Origin: Bdellovibrionales bacterium
Lineage (GTDB): Bacteria; Bdellovibrionota; Bdellovibrionia; Bdellovibrionales; UBA1609
Direction: 5' to 3'
NCBI GenBank assembly: GCA_013216195.1
Contig: JABSOQ010000017.1
Span: forward strand, 1 to 38,979
Length of the DNA stretch: 38,979 nucleotides
The translations under genes and the position numbers were made by a program. The notes beneath the pieces are model-generated. The model saw only the letters and a list, made by a program, of their open reading frames with translations, ran no database searches and had not been told where the DNA came from. Shown piece by piece: positions 2,915 through 23,556 of the stretch. The stretch's first letter is position 1; each line of letters begins with the position of its first letter.

Positions 2915-2991
2915 ACTTGGCTTCTACACGATGGAGCCTTGAGAGGGAAGCGAAGAAGTTGTAAAGTGCTGTAGAACAGCGATAGAGGGCT

Positions 2992-4728
2992 ATGTACAAG
3001 TTAAGAGACTACCAGCAGACTGCAGTTGATAACACTCTGGCGTATTTCAGAAAAACCAGAGACCCAGCTGTAATCGTGCTGCCCACCGGGGCAGGTAAAA
3101 GCTTGGTAATTGCTGAGCTGGCAAAGATTGCAAAGGGCCGAGTTTTGGTGCTCGCTCATGTAAAAGAGCTGGTTGAGCAAAATCATCAAAAGTATGAAAG
3201 CTACGGTCTGGAGGCCGGAATCTACTCAGCTGGTCTGAATCTGAAACAGTCTCATCAGAAAGTGATTTTTGGAAGTATTCAATCTGTTGCTAGAGCTAAT
3301 GATGACTTTTTTCGTGATTTCACTCTATTGGTTATTGATGAGTGTCACCGTGTTGGCCTTGAACAAGAGACCCAGTACTCGCAAGTTATCAAAAAGCTTC
3401 AGACCGATAACGAAGAAATTGCGATACTTGGTCTTACTGCCACGCCTTACCGCATGGGTTTAGGTTGGATCTTCAATCACAGTCATCTTGGCATTGAGAG
3501 AACTAAAGAGCCCAGATTCTTTAAAAATAGTGTTTATGAGCTGCCGCTTGAATACATGATTCGTAACAACTATCTTACACCTCCGGTTAAGGTTGATATT
3601 CCTGTTACCTGCTATGACTTTTCTGAAATTACAGAGTCGGGGCGTAAGTTCACAATGAATGAAGTCGAAGCAGTCCTTAACTCTCAGCGAAGGTTGACTC
3701 CTCTCATTGTGAAAAATATTGTGGATATCACTGAGAAATATGACAGGCAGGGCGTGATGATCTTCAGCAGTACAGTGAAGCATGCTCAAGAGATTCTTGA
3801 TTGTTTGCCAGAAGGTCAGGCCCGTATCGTTCTGGGTGATACTGAAGAGTCTGATCGTGATCGAATAATCGATGATTTTAAAGCTAAAAAAGTCAGGTAT
3901 CTGGTCAATGTGTCAGTCTTGACTACTGGGTTTGATGCGCCTCATGTCGATGTTATTGCTATTCTGAGACCTACAGATTCAGTAAGCCTTTATCAACAGA
4001 TCATTGGTCGTGGGCTGAGGCTGCATGAGGGTAAGAAAGACTGTTTTGTTCTCGATTATACGGGTGTGACCCACGACATCTACTCACCAGAGATTAGCGA
4101 TAAGAAGCCTACACCAGAATCGGTAAGTGTGCCGATCCCTTGCCCGAAATGTGGTTTTGAGAACAACTTTTGGGGCAGAGTAGACGACGATGGAAACATC
4201 ATGGAGCACTACGGCCGCACTTGTAAGGGCGGAATTCAAAATCCTGACACCTTGAAATTTGAACCTTGTGGCTACAGGTTTCGTTTTAAGATCTGCCCAG
4301 CTTGCTCTACCGAAAACGATCTTACAGCGCGTGATTGTGAGAAGTGTGGCCAGGTTCTGGTAGACGCCGACACAAAGCTAAAACAGGCCAGACTTTCTAA
4401 AAATGCACACATTCTTAAACCAGATACGATTGAGCTAGAGCAGAGATCAGACAAAAAGGGTCGAGAGTATTTACAGGTGAAATACTATGACTACGATGCA
4501 AAATACTTGTCAGAGATACATTATCTCGACAACGATACGAGTTTAAAGCGCTTCAATATCAACTTTTTGCGTTCTCACATGAGGCGTCCAGAGTTCGAAT
4601 TGCCCATTGAGACTGTACACGACGCCATTCGTTGCCAAGGTTTTTACCGCATGCCTTCATTTCTGATTGCGAGAAAGCAAGGTAAGTTTTGGCGCATTAC
4701 CGAAAAGATTTTTGCAGAGGAGTTATAG
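2992..4728 (+). CDS. radD: RadD (YejH)-like superfamily 2 DNA helicase
   Basis: This 578-residue protein resembles E. coli RadD along its whole length. It starts '[13 protein letters not shown]', followed by Walker A 'LPTGAGKS' (residues 30-37), '[12 protein letters not shown]', the DECH box at residues 116-119, '[11 protein letters not shown]', '[17 protein letters not shown]' and motif VI 'QIIGRGLRL'. The C-terminal half carries paired cysteines typical of the RadD zinc-binding region ('CPKCGF', 'CKGG', 'CGYRFRF', 'CPACSTEND', '[10 protein letters not shown]'). RadD is a DNA-repair ATPase that works with SSB and RecA during recombination and fork repair. It is convergent with the broken histidine kinase gene. 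Confidence 0.93.
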
Positions 4729-4741
4729 CAAAGTTCTGAAT

Positions 4742-5170
4742 TTACGAGTGTTTAGGTAGCTTAATCTCAACTTTTGCACCTGAGTTTTCTGCTGTTCGAA
4801 TTGAAGTTTCACCGCCCATTTTGCTGACGATTGATTGGCTAATGCTCAGGCCAAGGCCAGAGCCCTTTCCGACGTCTTTGGTGGTGAAAAACGGATCAAG
4901 TATTTGTGATTTGATATCTTCGTTCACACCATGGCCGGTATCCACCAGGGTAAAAGAAAGATTGTCATCGGCAGCTGATATTTGGATGCTCAGTTTCTTA
5001 ATCTTTGAGTTCTCCATAGCATCGACAGCATTCTTGAAAATATTGAGAAGCACTTGCTGAAGTTGACTTCTGTTACCGAGCACCAAGAACTCATCTACTT
5101 GAATCGATGTCTCGACCTCAATATTTTCTTCTTTAAAAGTGCTGTAGAGAAACTCTATTGTTGAAGTCAC
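4742..5170 (-). pseudogene. Sensor histidine kinase, C-terminal part (HATPase domain), separated by frameshift
   Basis: This open frame encodes the catalytic ATP-binding half of a histidine kinase: N box 'QQVLLNIFKNAVDAME', G1 'DTGHGV', F box 'PFFTTK', and G2 'GKGSGLGLSISQSIVSKMGG'. The GTG at its 5' end is probably not a real start. The same frame stays open and protein-like upstream, reading through 'LKTHLKKQYD' and 'RISEIVAQLRQF', back to about 5345, where it meets the frame of the N-terminal half. One extra base near 5338-5346 would join the two into a kinase of about 423 residues. No response regulator gene is adjacent. Confidence 0.85.
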
Positions 5171-5277
5171 TGTTTCTACAAAATCAAAAGGCTGAGTTGA
5201 GTGTTGCTCCTTTTTGTTGAATTGCCTGAGTTGAGCGACAATCTCACTGATTCGTGTATTTGTTGATTCAAGGTTAT

Positions 5278-6012
5278 TTAGCAGTTTTTGAAGCTTTTGA
5301 TCTTGGTCGACATCGTACTGCTTTTTGAGATGAGTCTTAAGCTGACAAAACCAATTGCAAGAGGGTTGTTGATTTCGTGGCCCACACCGCCGACGACTTG
5401 AGAAATACTCTTAAGTCGATTTTCATTGTAGAGATCGCTAAGTATTTTATGATTAAGCTCATTCACGAGGGCTCTGAGCCGAATACTGAGCAGTGCAAAT
5501 GAGCCTGTATAGGCTAAAATCATTATGACATTCATAAAATGCGAAATGAAACGGCCTTTTTCGTTTTGAAAATTGGGGTACTTGATACCAGCCAGATGAA
5601 GCACAAACATCAAAACCAAAATTCCGGACGTGACAGAGATCCAGATGAGGGTGGCCTTCTTTTCAAGCAGAACAGATGCTGAATAGACAATGGCTGGCAG
5701 CCAGAACACACCCGGAGCAATCATGCCTTCTGCCACCGTGCTGGTAATTGTCAGCAGAAGTGTAACGTGCCCTAACCACGAATTTGAAATTGTAGTAAAA
5801 GATGCGAAGTCTTTCTTAAGAATTCGCCAGTGCGCGAGAAAGACGATAGCGAAGCCTAGCTCAATAACACCTACGATGGGTAATTTTAGTAAAAGAGTGA
5901 AGTAGACTGCAAACAGCAGGGCAATAGAGGCAGAGATCACAATCAGCTTTAGTAGAAAGGCTCTTTTGATCTGATTTACGGACTCTAGGTTTTTGGCATC
6001 AAGTTGTTTCAT
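5278..6012 (-). pseudogene. Sensor histidine kinase, N-terminal part (membrane sensor and H box), frameshifted
   Basis: The N-terminal half has about six hydrophobic segments ('LIVISASIALLFAVYFTLL', 'VIELGFAIVFLAH', 'LGHVTLLLTITSTV' and others) followed by the phosphoacceptor box 'GGVGHEINNPLAIGFVS'. Right after this the frame changes to 'LRLISKSSTMS' and stops, in the middle of the dimerisation helix, while the expected continuation is in another frame. The start is taken at the ATG at 6012; a TTG at 6048 would add 12 residues. The product as read would lack the ATPase domain and could not autophosphorylate. No slippery heptamer is evident at the junction, so a mutation or sequence error is more likely than programmed frameshifting. 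Confidence 0.8.
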
Positions 6013-6159
6013 TGAGACTTGCGGCTCCCCGAATTCAAAAACGGTCAAGGCTTAAAGAGTAGTACTAGATAGTCCTACCTGTCTAGCTACAGACTTGTCG
6101 CTACCTTCAAAATTTGGGGTGATAACTGCGAATAGTCGACTTTTGAGATTGGGTAGGCA

Positions 6160-7011
6160 GTGGCTAAAAATATCATCATCACACAGTGTTTACAGAACGA
6201 CTTTATCGCGCCCATCGAGCGATACAAGCAGTTGCCTAATCTGCTGCACATCGGGTTTACCGAGTCTAAACGTCTAGTTGGTGATTCGAGCCATGATGGG
6301 CCATTAGTTCAAACTATCGACTACATTCATAGTCTCCCAGAAGACGAAATTGAAGTTTTGCATATACGTGACTGGCATGATCTGAACGACGAAGGGCAAA
6401 AAGCTCACCTTAGACAGTTTGGTGAGCATTGCATTAAAGAGACCACAGGCGCCAGGTTCCTATTCAACCTACCCGATCAGAGTAATGTGCGGGTTATTGA
6501 CTCGCTAACGCTAAATGATTTCGTGAGTACCAACTTAAAAGAGCTTCTTGAGCCATTCAGTGACCAAGCACTTACAGTGGGGCTGGTAGGAGTCTGGACA
6601 GAGGCTAAAATCACTTATCTCTCATATGAACTTAAGACCCGCTACCCAAAGTTCGAAATAGTCATTTGTTCTGCACTGACTGCAAGTTCAACTCGTCACA
6701 ACCACTTTGTAGCTCTGGAGCAGCTCACTCGATTGCTCGGTGTTAAGGTCGTGCACTCGGTTGGTCAATTTATGGATCTGTTATCAGGCACGAACTTTTC
6801 ATCTGATGTCACAGGCATGTCAGCAGAGGGCTTGCAGATCAATTCAAAAGGGCAAGCGCTATCACATAATGATGAGACCATTATCAAATACCTTTTTAGA
6901 GATTGCCGCTCTATTGACTTAAAGGTTTTAGATGGCGGGTTCTCAGGAAACTTGGTGGCTTCAGTGGTGAGCTATGATTTGGATAATCACGAACAAGCCC
7001 TCATGTGTTAA
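6160..7011 (+). CDS. Isochorismatase-like domain protein (first part of an interrupted three-domain protein)
   Basis: The frame starts with GTG at 6160 and reads 'MAKNIIITQCLQNDF', the usual opening of the isochorismatase/cysteine-hydrolase fold with its aspartate. The later family motif reads 'LVGVWTEAKITYLSYEL'; the position normally held by the catalytic cysteine is Lys150, so hydrolase activity is doubtful. The last third ('LKVLDGGFSGNLVASVVSY') no longer looks like isochorismatase but like the glycine-rich start of a kinase-like domain. It then ends abruptly at 'EQALMC'. Adding one base in the C run near 6998-7002 would give '...EQAPHVLKIG' and join it to the next frame. Confidence 0.8.
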   Translation: MAKNIIITQCLQNDFIAPIERYKQLPNLLHIGFTESKRLVGDSSHDGPLVQTIDYIHSLPEDEIEVLHIRDWHDLNDEGQKAHLRQFGEHCIKETTGARFLFNLPDQSNVRVIDSLTLNDFVSTNLKELLEPFSDQALTVGLVGVWTEAKITYLSYELKTRYPKFEIVICSALTASSTRHNHFVALEQLTRLLGVKVVHSVGQFMDLLSGTNFSSDVTGMSAEGLQINSKGQALSHNDETIIKYLFRDCRSIDLKVLDGGFSGNLVASVVSYDLDNHEQALMC

Positions 7012-7808
7012 AGATAGGTGACTCTGAGCTGATTGGTAAGGAGCGCATGTCTTTTGAATCTATCGAGATGATTCTTGGCAATAATGCACCCAGAATTGTC
7101 GACTATGTCGATTACGAGGGTAGAGGTGCATTAAAGTACAGGTATGCGTCTATGGGCTCGGGTGGTTCTTTGAGCTTACAAAAGCTCTATCAATCTGGTG
7201 CTAGCCGACTTCAGCTAAAGCGCATTCTAAAAGATGTCTTTAGTAGTCAGTTGGGCAGGCTATACAGAGCCTCAGAGGTCGAACAGATAAATCTTCTCGA
7301 GTACTATGGCATTCAGCCTAGATCATCTAGCTTAGTGAAGAGTTGGATTGAACCAGTTGCCTTGGGTGATTTGGCTGCCGACGAGATATCGGTCAGTGAA
7401 GGAGAAACTTGCCCAAATGTATTAAAGTTTTACGAGTCTGGTTTGACGCACGTATTGCCCTATGCCACTAGGCAACCAAGGTTGTGCTACGTTCACGGTG
7501 ATTTAAATGGAGCGAATATCGTAGTTGATGCCAACAATAACACATGGATCATTGACTTCTTTCACACACATCGAGGTCATGTGCTGCGAGATCTAGTAAA
7601 ACTAGAAAACGATTTACTCTACATCTTCACACCAATTCAATCAGAGGCTCAGTTCAAAGAGGCTATTCAGCTAATCAATATCATTTTAGATGTCGATGAT
7701 CTGGGTAAGAGGTTTGAGCCTCCAGCGCAGAAGTTTGAGCACGATGAGCTTAATTGTACCCTTGAGACTGTAGCTTTATTGCGGTCTTTTTATCCAGATT
7801 TAGTTTAA
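7005..7808 (+). CDS. APH/choline-kinase-like phosphotransferase domain (middle part of the interrupted protein)
   Basis: This frame overlaps the end of the previous one and continues the kinase-like domain ('LKIGDSELIGKERMSFESIE', 'APRIVDYVDYEGRGALKYRY'). The catalytic core is intact: 'YVHGDLNGANIVVD' with His164, Asp166 and Asn171, then 'WIIDF' with Asp184, the arrangement of aminoglycoside/choline-kinase-fold enzymes. The following stretch 'THRGHVLRDLVKLENDLLY' recalls a conflict-system-associated domain I remember as TCAD9, but I cannot verify that. No good ribosome-binding site precedes the GTG at 7005, so it is unlikely to be translated on its own. It stops at TAA 7806-7808, and the same frame stays open and protein-like beyond the stop ('EDRDPFQLMVAKLRYRVHT'). 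Confidence 0.78.
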   Translation: MLKIGDSELIGKERMSFESIEMILGNNAPRIVDYVDYEGRGALKYRYASMGSGGSLSLQKLYQSGASRLQLKRILKDVFSSQLGRLYRASEVEQINLLEYYGIQPRSSSLVKSWIEPVALGDLAADEISVSEGETCPNVLKFYESGLTHVLPYATRQPRLCYVHGDLNGANIVVDANNNTWIIDFFHTHRGHVLRDLVKLENDLLYIFTPIQSEAQFKEAIQLINIILDVDDLGKRFEPPAQKFEHDELNCTLETVALLRSFYPDLV

Positions 7809-7832
7809 GAAGATCGAGATCCGTTTCAGCTA

Positions 7833-8456
7833 ATGGTGGCCAAGCTTCGCTACCGTGTGCACACGGTTTCATTTGAGAAGTGCAACATTTGGCAGAAAAG
7901 GCTGGCTCTCTACACATCGGGGCTTTTGGCCAAAAAAATTGAAGACTCAATTGAATCAACACTTCACTTGAGAGTCGATTGGCTACCTGAGAAATACTCA
8001 TCAAGTGGCAGAATGGGCATCACGATCTTGCCTGGTCGAAAAGACCGCAACAGAGATCTTGAGACAGATATCAATGAGTTGAAGGCCAAGAGTGTGACTC
8101 ATGTGGTTTCAGTCATCACAACTGAGGAAATGAATCATTACGGTGTGGGTGAATTGCAAGATGCACTGCAGAGTGCCGGGCTGAACCCTAAGCTCTTTTC
8201 ATTGAAAGACCAGAAGGTACCGAGTGTGTCTTTGGCCGGAGAGTTTTACGAGCATGTTAGTAAACTACTAGAAACCGATCAAAAAGTGGTAGTGCATTGT
8301 GTGGGTGGCCTTGGTCGATCAGGCACTCTTGTTGCTGACTATCTAAAAAAGCAATCCGGTCTAACCGGTGTAGAGGCAATGTCAGTCGTTCGTGCCTTTC
8401 GGTCTCCAAGGGCGATTGAGTCGAAAGAGCAAGAGAAGTTCTTAGTTGAAGACTAG
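7833..8456 (+). CDS. Dual-specificity/tyrosine phosphatase-like protein (last part of the interrupted protein)
   Basis: This frame carries the CX5R phosphatase signature 'HCVGGLGRSG' (His155, Cys156, Arg162). The upstream region 'MGITILPGRKDRNRDLETD' and 'VTHVVSVITTEEM' is typical of CDKN3/DSP-like phosphatases, and the tail 'VVRAFRSPRAIESKEQEKF' fits too. The CX5R core suggests hydrolysis of phosphoester bonds on protein or small-molecule substrates. The first 60 residues look like the C-terminal lobe of the preceding kinase domain. The frame is the same as that of the kinase part and is separated from it only by one TAA. Its stop lies 2 nt from the convergent DUF2461 gene. Confidence 0.85.
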   Translation: MVAKLRYRVHTVSFEKCNIWQKRLALYTSGLLAKKIEDSIESTLHLRVDWLPEKYSSSGRMGITILPGRKDRNRDLETDINELKAKSVTHVVSVITTEEMNHYGVGELQDALQSAGLNPKLFSLKDQKVPSVSLAGEFYEHVSKLLETDQKVVVHCVGGLGRSGTLVADYLKKQSGLTGVEAMSVVRAFRSPRAIESKEQEKFLVED

Positions 8457-8458
8457 TT

Positions 8459-9151
8459 CTATCTGTACACTCCAACTGTTTTTCGTAGCCATTTCATAAA
8501 AGGTAGAGCGAGACCGATATCTGCAACAAGGCGCTCTGTGAATTCTTTGCTTTTCACTTCGGTTCTCGTGAATATCTGTTGCATGAAAAACTGTTTATGC
8601 CAGAGGTATTTCGCTGCTTCACCACCTGGGTCAAAAGCCTTAGGAAAGCGCTTGTATTTCTCGCCAGCTAAACCACCCCAGGCTTTAAGCATTTTCTTAT
8701 TGGTCATGATCTGATCAAACTCGTCAAAATTGTCGACGATTCCGGCTCTCATGCGGCTCATTTGACGTGATGAAACCATATAGATGCCAATGCCCATAAG
8801 GTTGTCCTCTTTCATTGCGCCAAATTGAATATGAATAGCTGGGTTCCATTCAAAGCGAGAGCGGTTCTTTTCACAGAGGGTTGCAAAGCTGAAGTTCTTA
8901 ACGTGGCCCTGCTCTTCGGCGCGGTTACTAGGTCTCAAGGGGCGAGTGATCTTTTTCGAACTAATCTCCATTTTCGGAAGATCTCTTTTGTACTCCTGAT
9001 TAATTCTCTCAAGCATATGAGAAAAAGGGTCTTTCACGCCCTCAAGGTAGAGGCCAGAGTTCGCCTCATACCAAGGTTTTTTAAATTTGTTTGTTTCGGC
9101 TCCGTCAAAGTACTTGAAGGTCTTGACTGAAAACTTTGGATCTTTTGCCAT
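8459..9151 (-). CDS. DUF2461 (TIGR02453) family protein
   Basis: This 230-residue soluble protein matches the DUF2461 pattern: an N-terminal 'FKYFDGAETNKFKKPWYEAN' segment, 'VKDPFSHMLERIN', a central 'PAIHIQFGAM...GIGIYMVSSRQMSRMRAGI' strand-rich part and a C-terminal helical region with 'PKAFDPGG'. The biochemical role of the family is not known to me. An AGGGG motif lies about 11 nt before the ATG. It is followed upstream, on the same strand, by a small secreted protein gene 13 nt away, suggesting co-transcription. Confidence 0.75.
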   Translation of the reverse strand: MAKDPKFSVKTFKYFDGAETNKFKKPWYEANSGLYLEGVKDPFSHMLERINQEYKRDLPKMEISSKKITRPLRPSNRAEEQGHVKNFSFATLCEKNRSRFEWNPAIHIQFGAMKEDNLMGIGIYMVSSRQMSRMRAGIVDNFDEFDQIMTNKKMLKAWGGLAGEKYKRFPKAFDPGGEAAKYLWHKQFFMQQIFTRTEVKSKEFTERLVADIGLALPFMKWLRKTVGVYR

Positions 9152-18608: not shown

Positions 18609-19553
18609 GTGACACCAGAAGCTGAAATATTTGAGCGCATATTGAGCAATGTCTCGAAAGTCATTGTCGGCAAAGACGATGTCGTAAAGAAGATCATCTG
18701 TTGCTGGATATCAGGGGGCCACGTTTTACTAGAAGACGTGCCGGGTACAGGTAAAACAGTGTTGGCGCGAGCAATAGCAAAGTCTACGAATTGCGAGTTT
18801 AATCGTGTGCAATTTACTCCTGACCTTCTGCCTTCAGATATTTTGGGTTCATCGATTTTCAATCAAAAGGATCGAGTTTTTGAGTTTCACAAAGGGCCAA
18901 TTTTTACGACCATTTTTTTAGGCGACGAAATCAATCGAGCCACTCCTCGAACACAGTCAGCACTGCTAGAAGCCATGGCCGAGAGACAGGTCACGATAGA
19001 TGGTGAGACCAGAAAAATTGATCGTAACTTTTTTGCGCTGGCAACTCAAAACCCCGTCGATCAGCTCGGTACATTTCAGCTACCCGAAGCTCAACTTGAT
19101 CGATTTTATATGAAGCTTTCAATTGGCTACCCGACGCCTGAGCAAGAGATTCAAATCGCCAAGAACCAAAACAAACAACATCCGATTCATGCTCTGTCTC
19201 CTGTTGAGTCTAAAGAGCGAATTGCGTGGCTTGCAGATCAAGTGTCTAACGTTAGAATCGATGATGATGTCTATCAGTACATAATGGAGTTCGTGCATCT
19301 AACCCGAAATTGTGAACATGTCAAAATTGGAGCGAGCCCGAGAACGACTCTAGCATTAGCCAAAGTCTGTCAGGCTATGGCATGTGTTGAGGGTATGGAC
19401 TACGTGCTCCCAAATCACGTGTTCTCTGTTCTTGATGAGGTGGTTGGTCATCGCCTTATTCTAACTCCCGAAGCTAGATTAGCAGGCTGGAATAGCCATG
19501 AGGTTATTGAGTTTCTAAAGACTCTCGTTGAGGCTCCAATACAAGCGGCATGA
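18609..19553 (+). CDS. MoxR-family AAA+ ATPase
   Basis: This 314-residue protein has 'VIVGKDDVVKKIICCWISGG' at the N-terminus, Walker A 'DVPGTGKTVLAR' (Lys49-Thr50), the MoxR signature 'RVQFTPDLLPSDILGSSIF', Walker B 'IFLGDEINRATPRTQSALLEAM' and the sensor region 'FALATQNPVDQLGTFQLPEAQLDRF'. MoxR ATPases act as chaperones for assembling or activating von Willebrand-type or DUF58 proteins. The GTG at 18609 follows a GGAGAG sequence. It is the first gene of a seven-gene cluster, and its stop overlaps the DUF58 start (ATGA). Confidence 0.94.
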   Translation: MTPEAEIFERILSNVSKVIVGKDDVVKKIICCWISGGHVLLEDVPGTGKTVLARAIAKSTNCEFNRVQFTPDLLPSDILGSSIFNQKDRVFEFHKGPIFTTIFLGDEINRATPRTQSALLEAMAERQVTIDGETRKIDRNFFALATQNPVDQLGTFQLPEAQLDRFYMKLSIGYPTPEQEIQIAKNQNKQHPIHALSPVESKERIAWLADQVSNVRIDDDVYQYIMEFVHLTRNCEHVKIGASPRTTLALAKVCQAMACVEGMDYVLPNHVFSVLDEVVGHRLILTPEARLAGWNSHEVIEFLKTLVEAPIQAA

Positions 19554-20956
19554 GACGTATAATTGAGAGGCCTTTTCTAGATTATCTCAAACCCAATTTA
19601 CACGAAGTTGATTCGGTTGCTTACAACCTACCGGCATTGATCCGCTGGAAGCGAGTCATTAACCCATTCAATTTCATGCTAGGTTTAATAGGCCTTTCAT
19701 TGGTTGTCGGCATTTTCTCTAACATTGCCTTAAGCTTTTGTATCGGCCTCATTGGCTTCATGTGCTACAGCTACATTCGAACAAGGTCTCTAGCCAAGAA
19801 GCTCTACGTTTCGAGAGAGTTGAACAAAAAAAAGCTCTTTCAATCAGATGATGTGATCGTCACCTACAAGTTGGTGAACGCCTCATTGGCGACCTCACCC
19901 CCAATGCGCATTCGCGATCTATTGTCGTTTAGCGATCAGCCCAATCGTGATCTCGAGGTTCCTTTTCTATTACCGGCCAGGAGCCATCGCTCACTCGAAC
20001 TTCACCTCAAGGCCGATGGTGGAATGGGAGTAAGGCGAGTGGGGCCTTTGTCTCTCACAATTACCGACCCATTTGGTATTTTTGAGTTCTCGGTGCTTGA
20101 AGATGACGAGTTTGAGGTCGAAGTGTTGCCCAGGATCGGTGAGGTGCCTGAGCTTAGGCTAAAAGGGGCTCCACACAGCAATCGTTACGGCATATATGAC
20201 GTTCAGTCTATCGGAAGCAGCGTAAACTTTGTAGGCGTCAGAGAGTATGAACAGGGTGATTCTCTTAGAAATATTGCATGGAAACTTTCAGCAAAACGGG
20301 GAGAGCTGTTTGTCAAAGAATTTGAAAGCATGGTGAATGCTGAGATCGCCCTATTTCTAAACTTGCGACCAAATATTCATCAGGGAGCACCAGGCTATTC
20401 AACCTGGGAGCTTACAAAAGACATTGCGCTTTCTTTAGTCACTCAGCAAGTGGCCAATTCAAATAGTGTTCGGGTTTTTACTCAACAGTTTTTTATCGAG
20501 AACCTTAGAGGTCAGCAAGACACTTATGAGCTGGCACAGCAACTCCTTAAGGTTGATCCGTTAAGAAAATACCTAGATGGCACTGTTCACCATGACGATG
20601 AGGAGACCTCACCATCCTCTGCTGATCTTCTTCACAAGTATGTTGCAATGCAAAGGCCTGGCAGCAATGTGATCTTGATCACTCCATTTTTGACCTACGA
20701 ATCGACTGCTCTCATTTCGCATTTGAAAGGTCTCCGAGAGATGGGGTGTGAGGTTTTTGTGATTTTAATTGATTCGCAAAGTTACTTCACAAGAATTAGC
20801 AAACGAGTAGAAAACTCGATGAAGTTCTCTTCCCCGACTATGACTGGTGTTGACAGGTTTGCAGATCAACTTTCAGTGATGGGTGTGCATGTTGCCATAA
20901 TCGACTCTGAACAAAGTATTGCCGACAGCCTATTGAAGATGCGGGTGGCATTATGA
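19550..20956 (+). CDS. DUF58 domain protein, MoxR partner
   Basis: The 468-residue protein has two membrane segments near residues 40-80 ('FNFMLGLIGLSLVVGIFSNI', 'LSFCIGLIGFMCYSYI'), a periplasmic-type beta region, and the DUF58 core starting near residue 212 ('FVGVREYEQGDSLRNIAWKLSAKRGELFVKEFE'). A vWA-like region follows ('AEIALFLNLRP', later 'VILITPFLTY'). DUF58 proteins are the usual partners of MoxR. Overlapping ATGA junctions at both ends point to translational coupling with moxR and the next gene. Confidence 0.9.
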   Translation: MRRIIERPFLDYLKPNLHEVDSVAYNLPALIRWKRVINPFNFMLGLIGLSLVVGIFSNIALSFCIGLIGFMCYSYIRTRSLAKKLYVSRELNKKKLFQSDDVIVTYKLVNASLATSPPMRIRDLLSFSDQPNRDLEVPFLLPARSHRSLELHLKADGGMGVRRVGPLSLTITDPFGIFEFSVLEDDEFEVEVLPRIGEVPELRLKGAPHSNRYGIYDVQSIGSSVNFVGVREYEQGDSLRNIAWKLSAKRGELFVKEFESMVNAEIALFLNLRPNIHQGAPGYSTWELTKDIALSLVTQQVANSNSVRVFTQQFFIENLRGQQDTYELAQQLLKVDPLRKYLDGTVHHDDEETSPSSADLLHKYVAMQRPGSNVILITPFLTYESTALISHLKGLREMGCEVFVILIDSQSYFTRISKRVENSMKFSSPTMTGVDRFADQLSVMGVHVAIIDSEQSIADSLLKMRVAL

Positions 20957-23556
20957 AGAGTATCGACGAGGGTAAAGAACGTTGGTTTGTTTTCAATCTC
21001 ATTTGTTCGGCTTCTCTGACATTGAATGCAAGTTTGATCTTTGGCATGGAGGGCTGGCGATACACAGCCTTTTTTGCATTGCACTTGGTACTTGCCAGTT
21101 GGTTAAGAGAGGTGTTTTGGCGACCAGAGCTTCAAACCTTGGCTAAAGACTTTGAGGTCTACAGTGAATCTCCGCCAACCCTCTTCGTTTTTGGCGAGGC
21201 TTCAAAAGACAAGATGAGTCTGTTGCAGAGAATGGACGTTCTGTACGATACCTTTGCCGACCCCAAATACATCTGGGGGCCAGCAGTTGCTGGGGTATGG
21301 TTTTGCGTTTGTAAATACCTGTTTATTTACGAGTATCATCAGAGTTTCTCAATCGCTTACATCATGTTTGGCATCATGTGTGTTGCAATCATGATGTCTT
21401 TCCATAAAAACAGTTTGCTGGTGGTTATGGCTCTCAATGCTTTGTTGAGTTTTGCGTTGCTGATAAAAATGGGGCCAGAGTTTTATCTCGTCCAAGCGGT
21501 GAATTTGTTTTTTATACTAGCCGCCTTGAGTATTTTTGCAACTTCAGGTTTTCGTGCACAAAGTCGATTTCAATACCCGATATCAGTATTTAGCCAGACT
21601 CTGCTGATTTCATTGATAAGCTTCATGGCTTACCGTGTTCTTGATCGGCAAGATCAAGGTGCGAAAGGCATCAACGACAGGCCAACCCTAAAGCAAAAGG
21701 TTTCGAGAAGAACTGCAGAGTTGGCCGCCAAGTTGGTTCCGGAAAGTCTGTCTCAGCCCTCTGCCAGTCAGTCAGGGGGAGAGCCTGAGAGCGGCCAAGA
21801 TTCTCAGAGTAAGCAAAGGTCTCATGGGGCTACAGAGGCTAAGAGTTCATCTGCGGATGCGAATCAAAGAGCAGGCTTTGAGGCGAAAGGGTCTCAGCCG
21901 TCTGGTGCCGACGGTGGCTCTGATCGCCTCGAAACTAAGCCAAGCATTGACCCTGAGGTGAGAAAGAGACTTGAGCAGAACATTCTTGCTAATAGTCAGA
22001 GGTTACAGAGCCGGATGGAGCAGCAGGCAGGGGTAAGTGGGGGGCTAGGTAAAGACCCTGAGCCAGTAGGAGTGAGTCGAAGACGCGCTGAAAAAGAGAG
22101 AAACCTTCTTCGTGAATTAAAAGAGCAAGATGACCTTGCCATGTATGAAGCTTTTCAGGCTGCACAAGAGCAGGTTCTAAAGCAACAGTCTATTGTGCCA
22201 CAAGACTTGCAGCAGCTGGAGCAGCAATACACAGAGTTATCCAGGCAGCTGCAAAATCAGGTGGAGAACCAGAATTTGACCAGCCAACAAGCTGACATGG
22301 CTAAGCTTCAAATGGAGCAGCAAAAAAAGATCGAAAAGCTTGAGAAAATAGCCAGTAAGCTTAAAAAGGATCAGGGCACAAACCACAAAAAGATTATCAA
22401 AAAGCTCGAGCGTAAAATTGATCGCTTAAAAAAAGAGAAGAGTCTACAGGCTAGGAGAAAAGCTCCATCAGACCTTCGAAAACAATTGAATTCGAATTCA
22501 GCTTTGAGCTCGCAAACGAACATGGCACAGAATTCAAATTCAAACATGGGCACTCAGAGAGTTTCGCCGGCAGGAGGTTACGGGCCTGACGAAATGCCAA
22601 ATCAAATTGGTCGAAATGGTATTGACCCTAGAAATGGTTGGCCAGAAGTTAACGTCAAGCAAAACGGTGTTGTAGGTGGGACTGCTACTACTGCTTCAAA
22701 AGTAGGGGCGGGTGGGCCCCAAAGCTTGTCACCTAATGTTGGCAATACAAAGGTAAATAATGGGAGCTCTTTGCGGGAGCGGGGTGGTCGCGAGGGGCAG
22801 GCACTAGGTGATGCGAGTGAGCGGTTTGGCTCTGGTTCTGAAAAAAATGGCAGCGGTAAAAATCAAGCGGCCAACAAGGGGCTGCAAGGTCAAGAAGGTC
22901 CAGGCTCAAAGTCTGCCAGTGGTGAAAGTATCAAGGGAGGTAAATCAAAAACAGGTGAGTCATTGGCCACACAAGAAGCTGGCAATCCTGACCTCGCAAA
23001 TACAGAGTCAAGTCAAACGCCTTTGGCCAGTGGCAAGAAGAGCAAAGAGGCGCTGAGAAAAGAGAAGCTAAAAAAGAGAATCGAGTCGATTCAAAAAAAG
23101 GTAGATAGCTTTTTTGACCTTCTAGGTACCTTCATCAAAATTTTAGCAATCATGCTGGTGAGCTACATCCTGTATCAGGTTTACCAGTTCTCAAGATCAG
23201 AACCAGTTGAAGAGATCACGAAAGAGCCCGAGGAGCTGAGCCCAGATGAAAAGAGGCAACTCAAATTGGAGTATGCGGCCGCATTTGCTCGTGAAATGAG
23301 CCCGGAGCAAGAGGTCGTCGAGACCTATCAGTTTTTTCTTAAGACGATGGATCTCATAAATCGGCCAAAAGAGAATTGGCGACCAGCCATGAGCTTTCAA
23401 AAGGAGCTTGAGGTGCAAAGCTTTACCCTTTCACCTTGCTCTTCTGTAATCACGCGGGCTTATTGCGACATTCAGTATGGCGGGATTCAAATACAGCCAG
23501 CGGATCTTACTGGATTGCGGCAGGCTCGTGACCAGTTTCTAAAAGAGGTCTCTTAA
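20953..23556 (+). CDS. Large membrane protein with TgpA-like outline but no transglutaminase core; low-complexity/coiled-coil linker
   Basis: The 867-residue protein occupies the slot normally taken by a TgpA-type transglutaminase after moxR and DUF58. About six or seven hydrophobic segments lie in residues 12-230. A roughly 490-residue hydrophilic region (about 227-720) follows, rich in Ser, Gly, Gln, Asn and Lys, with a strong coiled coil near residues 420-495 ('LEQQYTELSRQLQNQVENQ', 'IIKKLERKIDRLKKEKS'). Then come one membrane helix (about 721-745, 'LGTFIKILAIMLVSYILYQV') and a C-terminal cytosolic domain resembling DUF4129. No Cys-His-Asp transglutaminase motif was found. The function is unknown; a scaffold or tether role is an inference. 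Its start overlaps the DUF58 stop. Confidence 0.8.
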   Translation: MKSIDEGKERWFVFNLICSASLTLNASLIFGMEGWRYTAFFALHLVLASWLREVFWRPELQTLAKDFEVYSESPPTLFVFGEASKDKMSLLQRMDVLYDTFADPKYIWGPAVAGVWFCVCKYLFIYEYHQSFSIAYIMFGIMCVAIMMSFHKNSLLVVMALNALLSFALLIKMGPEFYLVQAVNLFFILAALSIFATSGFRAQSRFQYPISVFSQTLLISLISFMAYRVLDRQDQGAKGINDRPTLKQKVSRRTAELAAKLVPESLSQPSASQSGGEPESGQDSQSKQRSHGATEAKSSSADANQRAGFEAKGSQPSGADGGSDRLETKPSIDPEVRKRLEQNILANSQRLQSRMEQQAGVSGGLGKDPEPVGVSRRRAEKERNLLRELKEQDDLAMYEAFQAAQEQVLKQQSIVPQDLQQLEQQYTELSRQLQNQVENQNLTSQQADMAKLQMEQQKKIEKLEKIASKLKKDQGTNHKKIIKKLERKIDRLKKEKSLQARRKAPSDLRKQLNSNSALSSQTNMAQNSNSNMGTQRVSPAGGYGPDEMPNQIGRNGIDPRNGWPEVNVKQNGVVGGTATTASKVGAGGPQSLSPNVGNTKVNNGSSLRERGGREGQALGDASERFGSGSEKNGSGKNQAANKGLQGQEGPGSKSASGESIKGGKSKTGESLATQEAGNPDLANTESSQTPLASGKKSKEALRKEKLKKRIESIQKKVDSFFDLLGTFIKILAIMLVSYILYQVYQFSRSEPVEEITKEPEELSPDEKRQLKLEYAAAFAREMSPEQEVVETYQFFLKTMDLINRPKENWRPAMSFQKELEVQSFTLSPCSSVITRAYCDIQYGGIQIQPADLTGLRQARDQFLKEVS

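Follow-up and report, generated by a model that had tools for sequence, protein, structure and literature searches.

A pseudo-nicotinamidase, kinase and phosphatase chain, interrupted in a Bdellovibrionales bacterium and intact in other phyla, with a possible link to NAD metabolism

Introduction

Bifunctional kinase/phosphatases such as PFKFB and AceK carry opposed activities on one chain. Nicotinamidases, pyrazinamidases and isochorismatase-like hydrolases (PF00857) use an Asp-Lys-Cys triad, and in nicotinamidases the DWH and HC residues hold a metal. Phosphatases of the KAP/CDKN3 type and other DSP-PTPases, including those linked to ADP-ribosylglycohydrolases (Tc-R-P, PTP-SAK), occur as separate partners of a protein kinase or of a glycohydrolase; KAP itself acts on phospho-CDK2. 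In a survey of ARG-centred NAD/ADP-ribose systems (PMC9503650), rhodanese-superfamily phosphatases were described in association with ADP-ribosylglycohydrolases, Nudix regulators and vWA genes. A CRISPR survey listed TCAD9, one of the TCAD domains named for ternary vWA-MoxR conflict systems, as associated with vWA-MoxR-VMAP (PMC10910872).

We analysed a twice-interrupted gene in a window of 38,979 nucleotides (the whole stretch of DNA presented here), whose product would join relatives of these hydrolases, kinases and phosphatases in one chain. Like PFKFB and AceK, this chain is predicted to hold opposed activities, but its domain combination is different and includes a pseudo-nicotinamidase domain. 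Each domain is already known singly, and a description of the three-domain chain, or of any activity of TCAD9, was not found in the literature searched, where TCAD9 was named by a single paper.

Results and discussion

Reading frames of the interrupted gene and their homologues

The three consecutive frames at the locus (Table 1) were compared with homologues from other genomes, and over their full lengths the three aligned with successive segments of single unbroken proteins, as expected from the suggestion in the first-pass annotation that they form one protein of about 765 residues. Together with the Pfam matches of the three pieces, the lack of other stops and the retained invariant columns (all described below), this agreement is far beyond chance. 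The search for unbroken homologues that the annotation had called for yielded 31 proteins of about 760–825 residues, each a single chain containing the three domains, and frame 1 was 42–49% identical to such homologues. Their sequences are continuous across both break points, and among the homologues found none was divided into three separate proteins at these boundaries. The reading frames also confirmed that frames 2 and 3 are in phase and divided only by the stop codon; no further stop occurs across the approximately 765 codons.

Table 1. Positions of the frames of the interrupted gene, its neighbours in the window and informative clusters at homologous loci
Feature	Source	Positions	Strand	Description
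Frame 1	Window	6160–7011	+	Pseudo-hydrolase domain (about residues 1–235) and kinase start; GTG start, stop TAA 7009–7011
Frame 2	Window	6987–7808	+	Rest of APH-type (TCAD9) kinase, from beta-3 Lys (LKIG) onward; stop TAA 7806–7808
In-frame TAA	Window	7806–7808	+	Inter-helix linker at the kinase module's end; LV(stop)EDRDPFQ aligns with LIHTDRDPIQ and similar sequences
Frame 3	Window	7809–8456	+	Last helices of the kinase module (DRDPFQLMVAKLRYRVHTVSF) and KAP/CDKN3-like dual-specificity phosphatase; Pfam CDKN3 match
Histidine kinase gene	Window	4742–6048	-	Adjoins the interrupted gene, divergent; HATPase_c E 1.8e-23
DUF2461 gene	Window	8459–9151	-	Beside the interrupted gene
MoxR-like, DUF58-like and large membrane protein genes in a row	Window	18609–23556	+	10 kb from the interrupted gene
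NAD-type run (L066/L010)	L066	8632–16817	same strand	NrtR, NAMPT, PRPP synthetase, unknown 294-aa protein, vWA-like, PurA-like, three-domain gene last
Lokiarchaeal cluster	L015	2061–5660		Nicotinamidase-type gene (intact triad), WD-repeat-like gene, stand-alone pseudo-hydrolase domain

The first break cuts through the N-lobe of the kinase, because frame 1 carries the Gly-rich loop (LDGGFSGN) and frame 2 encodes the beta-3 lysine; the kinase is thus incomplete without the end of frame 1. At the second break, a nonsense codon interrupts a linker ahead of a conserved DRDP motif. As read, the window copy would not yield a working kinase. All catalytic residues of the kinase and phosphatase domains are nevertheless kept, so the breaks are either recent or errors of assembly. 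At 136 alignment columns that are invariant in the other sequences, the window copy departs at 5–6, one of which is the frame junction itself, and intact copies depart at 0–6. With no further stop and with these columns and residues kept, the gene has otherwise been constrained until recently, and we favour the view that the window copy is a recent pseudogene.

The divergent histidine kinase gene next to it is apparently frame-shifted near 5280, with the H-box HEINNPL close to where one frame ends and the continuing helix and HATPase_c in another. This H-box was assigned by reading the sequence, Pfam giving no HisKA call.

It is also possible, though less likely than not, that both interruptions in the three-domain gene are assembly or sequencing errors, so that the organism carries an intact gene with the architecture and function best explained below. 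The retention of the catalytic residues and of nearly all invariant columns without a third lesion in the gene would be expected from this, the genome is a draft of 296 contigs, and the frameshift in the neighbouring gene brings the count to three breaks in about 2.6 kb, which resembles a low-quality patch. Three lesions at this spacing are compatible with either local decay or a poorly assembled patch. We searched for other split genes by homology, comparing about 320 kb of the same genome with other genomes, because a frameshift-detecting Viterbi script was insensitive and reported zero events even at the known breaks. The three-domain gene was the only convincing split match, which argues against error, although only 55 fragments had any match. 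Further points against error are that one break is a clean nonsense codon and that the copy at locus L124, in another phylum, also contains an in-frame TAA, located elsewhere in the gene. The L124 homologue (2987–5302) has this stop at 4439–4441, with conserved sequence on either side. In the Bdellovibrionales genome itself, a possible second gene split by a single in-frame stop was noted at L073 (8975–10303, minus strand), although its match to the subject, no better than about 30%, could be spurious.

Very unlikely, in our view, is a third reading, in which nothing is broken and three co-translated polypeptides reassemble. In its favour, the stop of frame 1 is overlapped by a GTG (7005), and 24 bases past the second stop there is an ATG (7833); both breaks fall in loops between secondary-structure elements of a homologue model, and no catalytic residue is lost. 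However, no convincing ribosome-binding site was seen by eye upstream of 7005 or 7833, no canonical slippery heptamer was found at the junction by inspection, no homologue is divided in this way, and the N-lobe of the kinase would be cut apart, with frame 2 beginning just two residues ahead of the beta-3 Lys.

Distribution of intact copies

A scan of genome contigs with frame 1 returned seven loci, five of which contained one uninterrupted frame of 762–819 residues with all three domains. Strong profile matches to the first domain were found in 27 of 296 genomes of the Turneriella phylum, where all copies are open frames of 776–831 residues apart from one ended by a contig edge, and in 5 of 292 genomes of the Sericytochromatia phylum. 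The Chryseobacterium phylum gave a first-domain match in 1 of 345 genomes (a Chryseobacterium-labelled MAG), and the only match among 241 genomes of the window's own phylum was the window copy itself. The kinase was absent from both same-genus genomes searched, one of which is only 61% complete. Natural shorter forms also exist: a gene from Thermoanaerobaculia (L014, 4998–6797) encodes the pseudo-hydrolase and kinase with no phosphatase, and the first domain stands alone in the Lokiarchaeal cluster. The protein is real but uncharacterised, a single chain that is intact in distantly related bacteria.

In a tree of the 31 intact copies and the window pieces, the window copy formed a long branch and was placed as the sister of the Sericytochromatia copies with a support of 0.998. 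This position suggests that the gene was transferred between phyla. Comparison with relatives for an insertion site found no synteny of the flanking genes, and the adjacent DUF2461 gene may belong to the same acquired stretch, because it was not found in ten relatives searched.

Residue states and structural matches of the three domains

Frame 1 matched the Pfam Isochorismatase family (PF00857; E 2.4e-9, 38 bits against a cut-off of 27), and the first domain had PDB profile matches to 3hb7 and nicotinamidases as well as a Foldseek match to 3hb7; by hhalign, its match to one nicotinamidase was weak. The fold, the QNDF motif, the G-V-x-T motif preceding the nucleophile position and the DWH and HC metal-site residues are shared with these hydrolases. 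The metal-site D-x-H and second H are almost invariant in the homologues, and a genuine nicotinamidase has the same residues. In contrast to the hydrolases, the family has all three triad positions replaced and is fused to a kinase. Alignment with the genuine nicotinamidase placed an invariant Cys of the homologues at the catalytic Asp position, and profile alignments to 3hb7 and 3s2s placed a Lys at the catalytic Cys position and, together with the homologue alignment, Ala, Ser or Thr at the catalytic Lys position. The first domain therefore belongs to the isochorismatase/nicotinamidase fold but is not a classical hydrolase, as the label of pseudo-hydrolase given on first inspection had implied, and a binding or sensing role would fit. 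The full-length model was poor over this domain and the linkers (block pLDDT about 30–87).

Frame 2 matched TCAD9 (PF19974; E 6e-40, 138 bits against a cut-off of 40) and APH (E 3e-6). The Gly-rich loop and the invariant Lys, Glu, HxDxxxxN catalytic Asp and Asn and DF metal Asp of TCAD9 and APH-type kinases are kept, with HGDLNGAN and IIDF intact in the window copy, so the APH-fold kinase recognised at first reading stands. What sets it apart from these kinases is the pseudo-hydrolase before it and the phosphatase after it in one chain. A model of a homologue's kinase (pLDDT 86, pTM 0.86) resembled LxmK, PsiK, glucosamine kinase, 5-methylthioribose kinase, maltokinase, fructosamine kinase and APHs, with Z 12–16.5 over 223–294 residues; for APH-type kinases such as 5-methylthioribose kinase, Z was about 14–15. 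Most of the best matches are small-molecule APH-type kinases, and the modelled domain accordingly resembles this class in its predicted fold. No single substrate is indicated, because many of the structural matches are tied: the top match, LxmK (Z 16.5), is a component of a peptide-modifying enzyme, and small-molecule kinases follow within about 1 Z.

In frame 3, Pfam matches were obtained to CDKN3, PTP-SAK, Tc-R-P and DSPc (best CDKN3, E 1.6e-15). The CX5R loop HCVGGLGRS is present in the window copy and the homologues, and the model of a homologue's phosphatase superposed on KAP with Z 25 (165 residues, 2.0 Å, 32% identity), which bears out the CX5R phosphatase proposed at first reading. It shares the loop and fold with KAP/CDKN3, but forms the C-terminal part of a kinase-containing chain. 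In a plasmid search, the best matches to the phosphatase domain were under genes annotated as ADP-ribosylglycohydrolase family.

Gene neighbourhoods and possible functions

Most homologues lie among lineage-specific, ordinary and unrelated neighbours. The NAD-type run of L066 comes from the Chryseobacterium-labelled MAG, and its same-strand NrtR and NAMPT context was seen at this locus only, not in the window nor at most other homologues. In common with NrtR/NAMPT NAD-salvage operons and the ARG-centred systems (PMC9503650), this run has a Nudix-type regulator, NAMPT, PRPP synthetase, a vWA-like gene and a phosphatase domain of the rhodanese superfamily, but no ADP-ribosylglycohydrolase was recognised in it, and the kinase and pseudo-nicotinamidase are additional. 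In the Lokiarchaeal cluster, the WD-repeat-like gene separates the nicotinamidase-type gene from the stand-alone first domain, which follows two genes downstream of it.

The first-pass annotation had also raised a conflict-type effector, which the surroundings of the gene do not bear out, most homologues standing alone among ordinary genes. PADLOC models gave no meaningful match to the pieces or homologues (one E of 0.004 in the phosphatase piece), NCBIfam gave none at the family cut-off, no relative was found in viral contigs, and matches in phages and plasmids concerned the phosphatase domain only. The name TCAD9, together with vWA/MoxR genes beside a few homologues, leaves a weak link to ternary conflict systems.

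Among alternative functions, the leading one is a protein kinase/phosphatase switch that would modify a vWA or MoxR partner, as a branch of those ternary systems. We consider it unlikely. The TCAD9 match and the reported association of TCAD9 (PMC10910872) argue for it, as does the resemblance of the phosphatase to KAP, whose target is a phosphorylated protein kinase. At four loci (L048, L049, L051 and L052), moreover, the homologue lies directly before the MoxR gene of a MoxR-Bat operon with vWA-type genes, Bat-type genes following in three, and in L010 a vWA-like gene lies two genes upstream of the homologue. However, vWA assignments were made by reading the sequence, and Pfam gave no match for the L010 gene. 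MoxR or vWA genes are beside few homologues only, most having neither adjacent; the neighbours in the window are the histidine kinase and DUF2461 genes, with many genes between the interrupted gene and the distant MoxR/DUF58-like genes; and the kinase matches mostly small-molecule kinases.

We prefer, tentatively and at somewhat below an even chance, a conserved chain, recently interrupted here, that consists of a pseudo-nicotinamidase sensor, an APH-type small-molecule kinase and a KAP-like phosphatase, the sensor's ligand gating the action of the other two on one NAD-linked metabolite. Its architecture, residue states, interruptions and distribution are given by the sequences and models described above; we infer the ligand, the gating, the substrate and the sharing of that substrate by the two catalytic domains. 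Since the metal-site residues persist and every triad position is replaced, the first domain of intact relatives would probably bind, but not hydrolyse, an NAD-related ligand such as a pyridine. Whether this ligand is bound might then bias the opposed kinase and phosphatase, which may act on one shared, probably ribose-containing, NAD-linked metabolite. The L066 run of NrtR, NAMPT and PRPP synthetase and the nicotinamidase-type gene near the stand-alone first domain in L015 point to such a link with NAD. Against it, these amount to one operon locus and one Lokiarchaeal cluster, and four loci instead adjoin a MoxR-Bat operon; against the small-molecule reading of the kinase, the top match LxmK modifies a peptide. 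The specific version, in which the chain is a metabolite sensor-modifier of a new kind whose dead nicotinamidase, with Cys and Lys now at catalytic positions, senses the level of NAD precursors and switches between a ribose-type kinase and the KAP-like phosphatase, both acting on the same small NAD-linked molecule, is doubtful.

The value of these observations rests on the intact homologues rather than on the broken window copy. If the preferred reading is correct, the family would be a bifunctional kinase/phosphatase, so far uncharacterised, in which a nicotinamidase domain has been repurposed and which several phyla retain intact, and TCAD9 would gain a testable activity tied to NAD metabolism.
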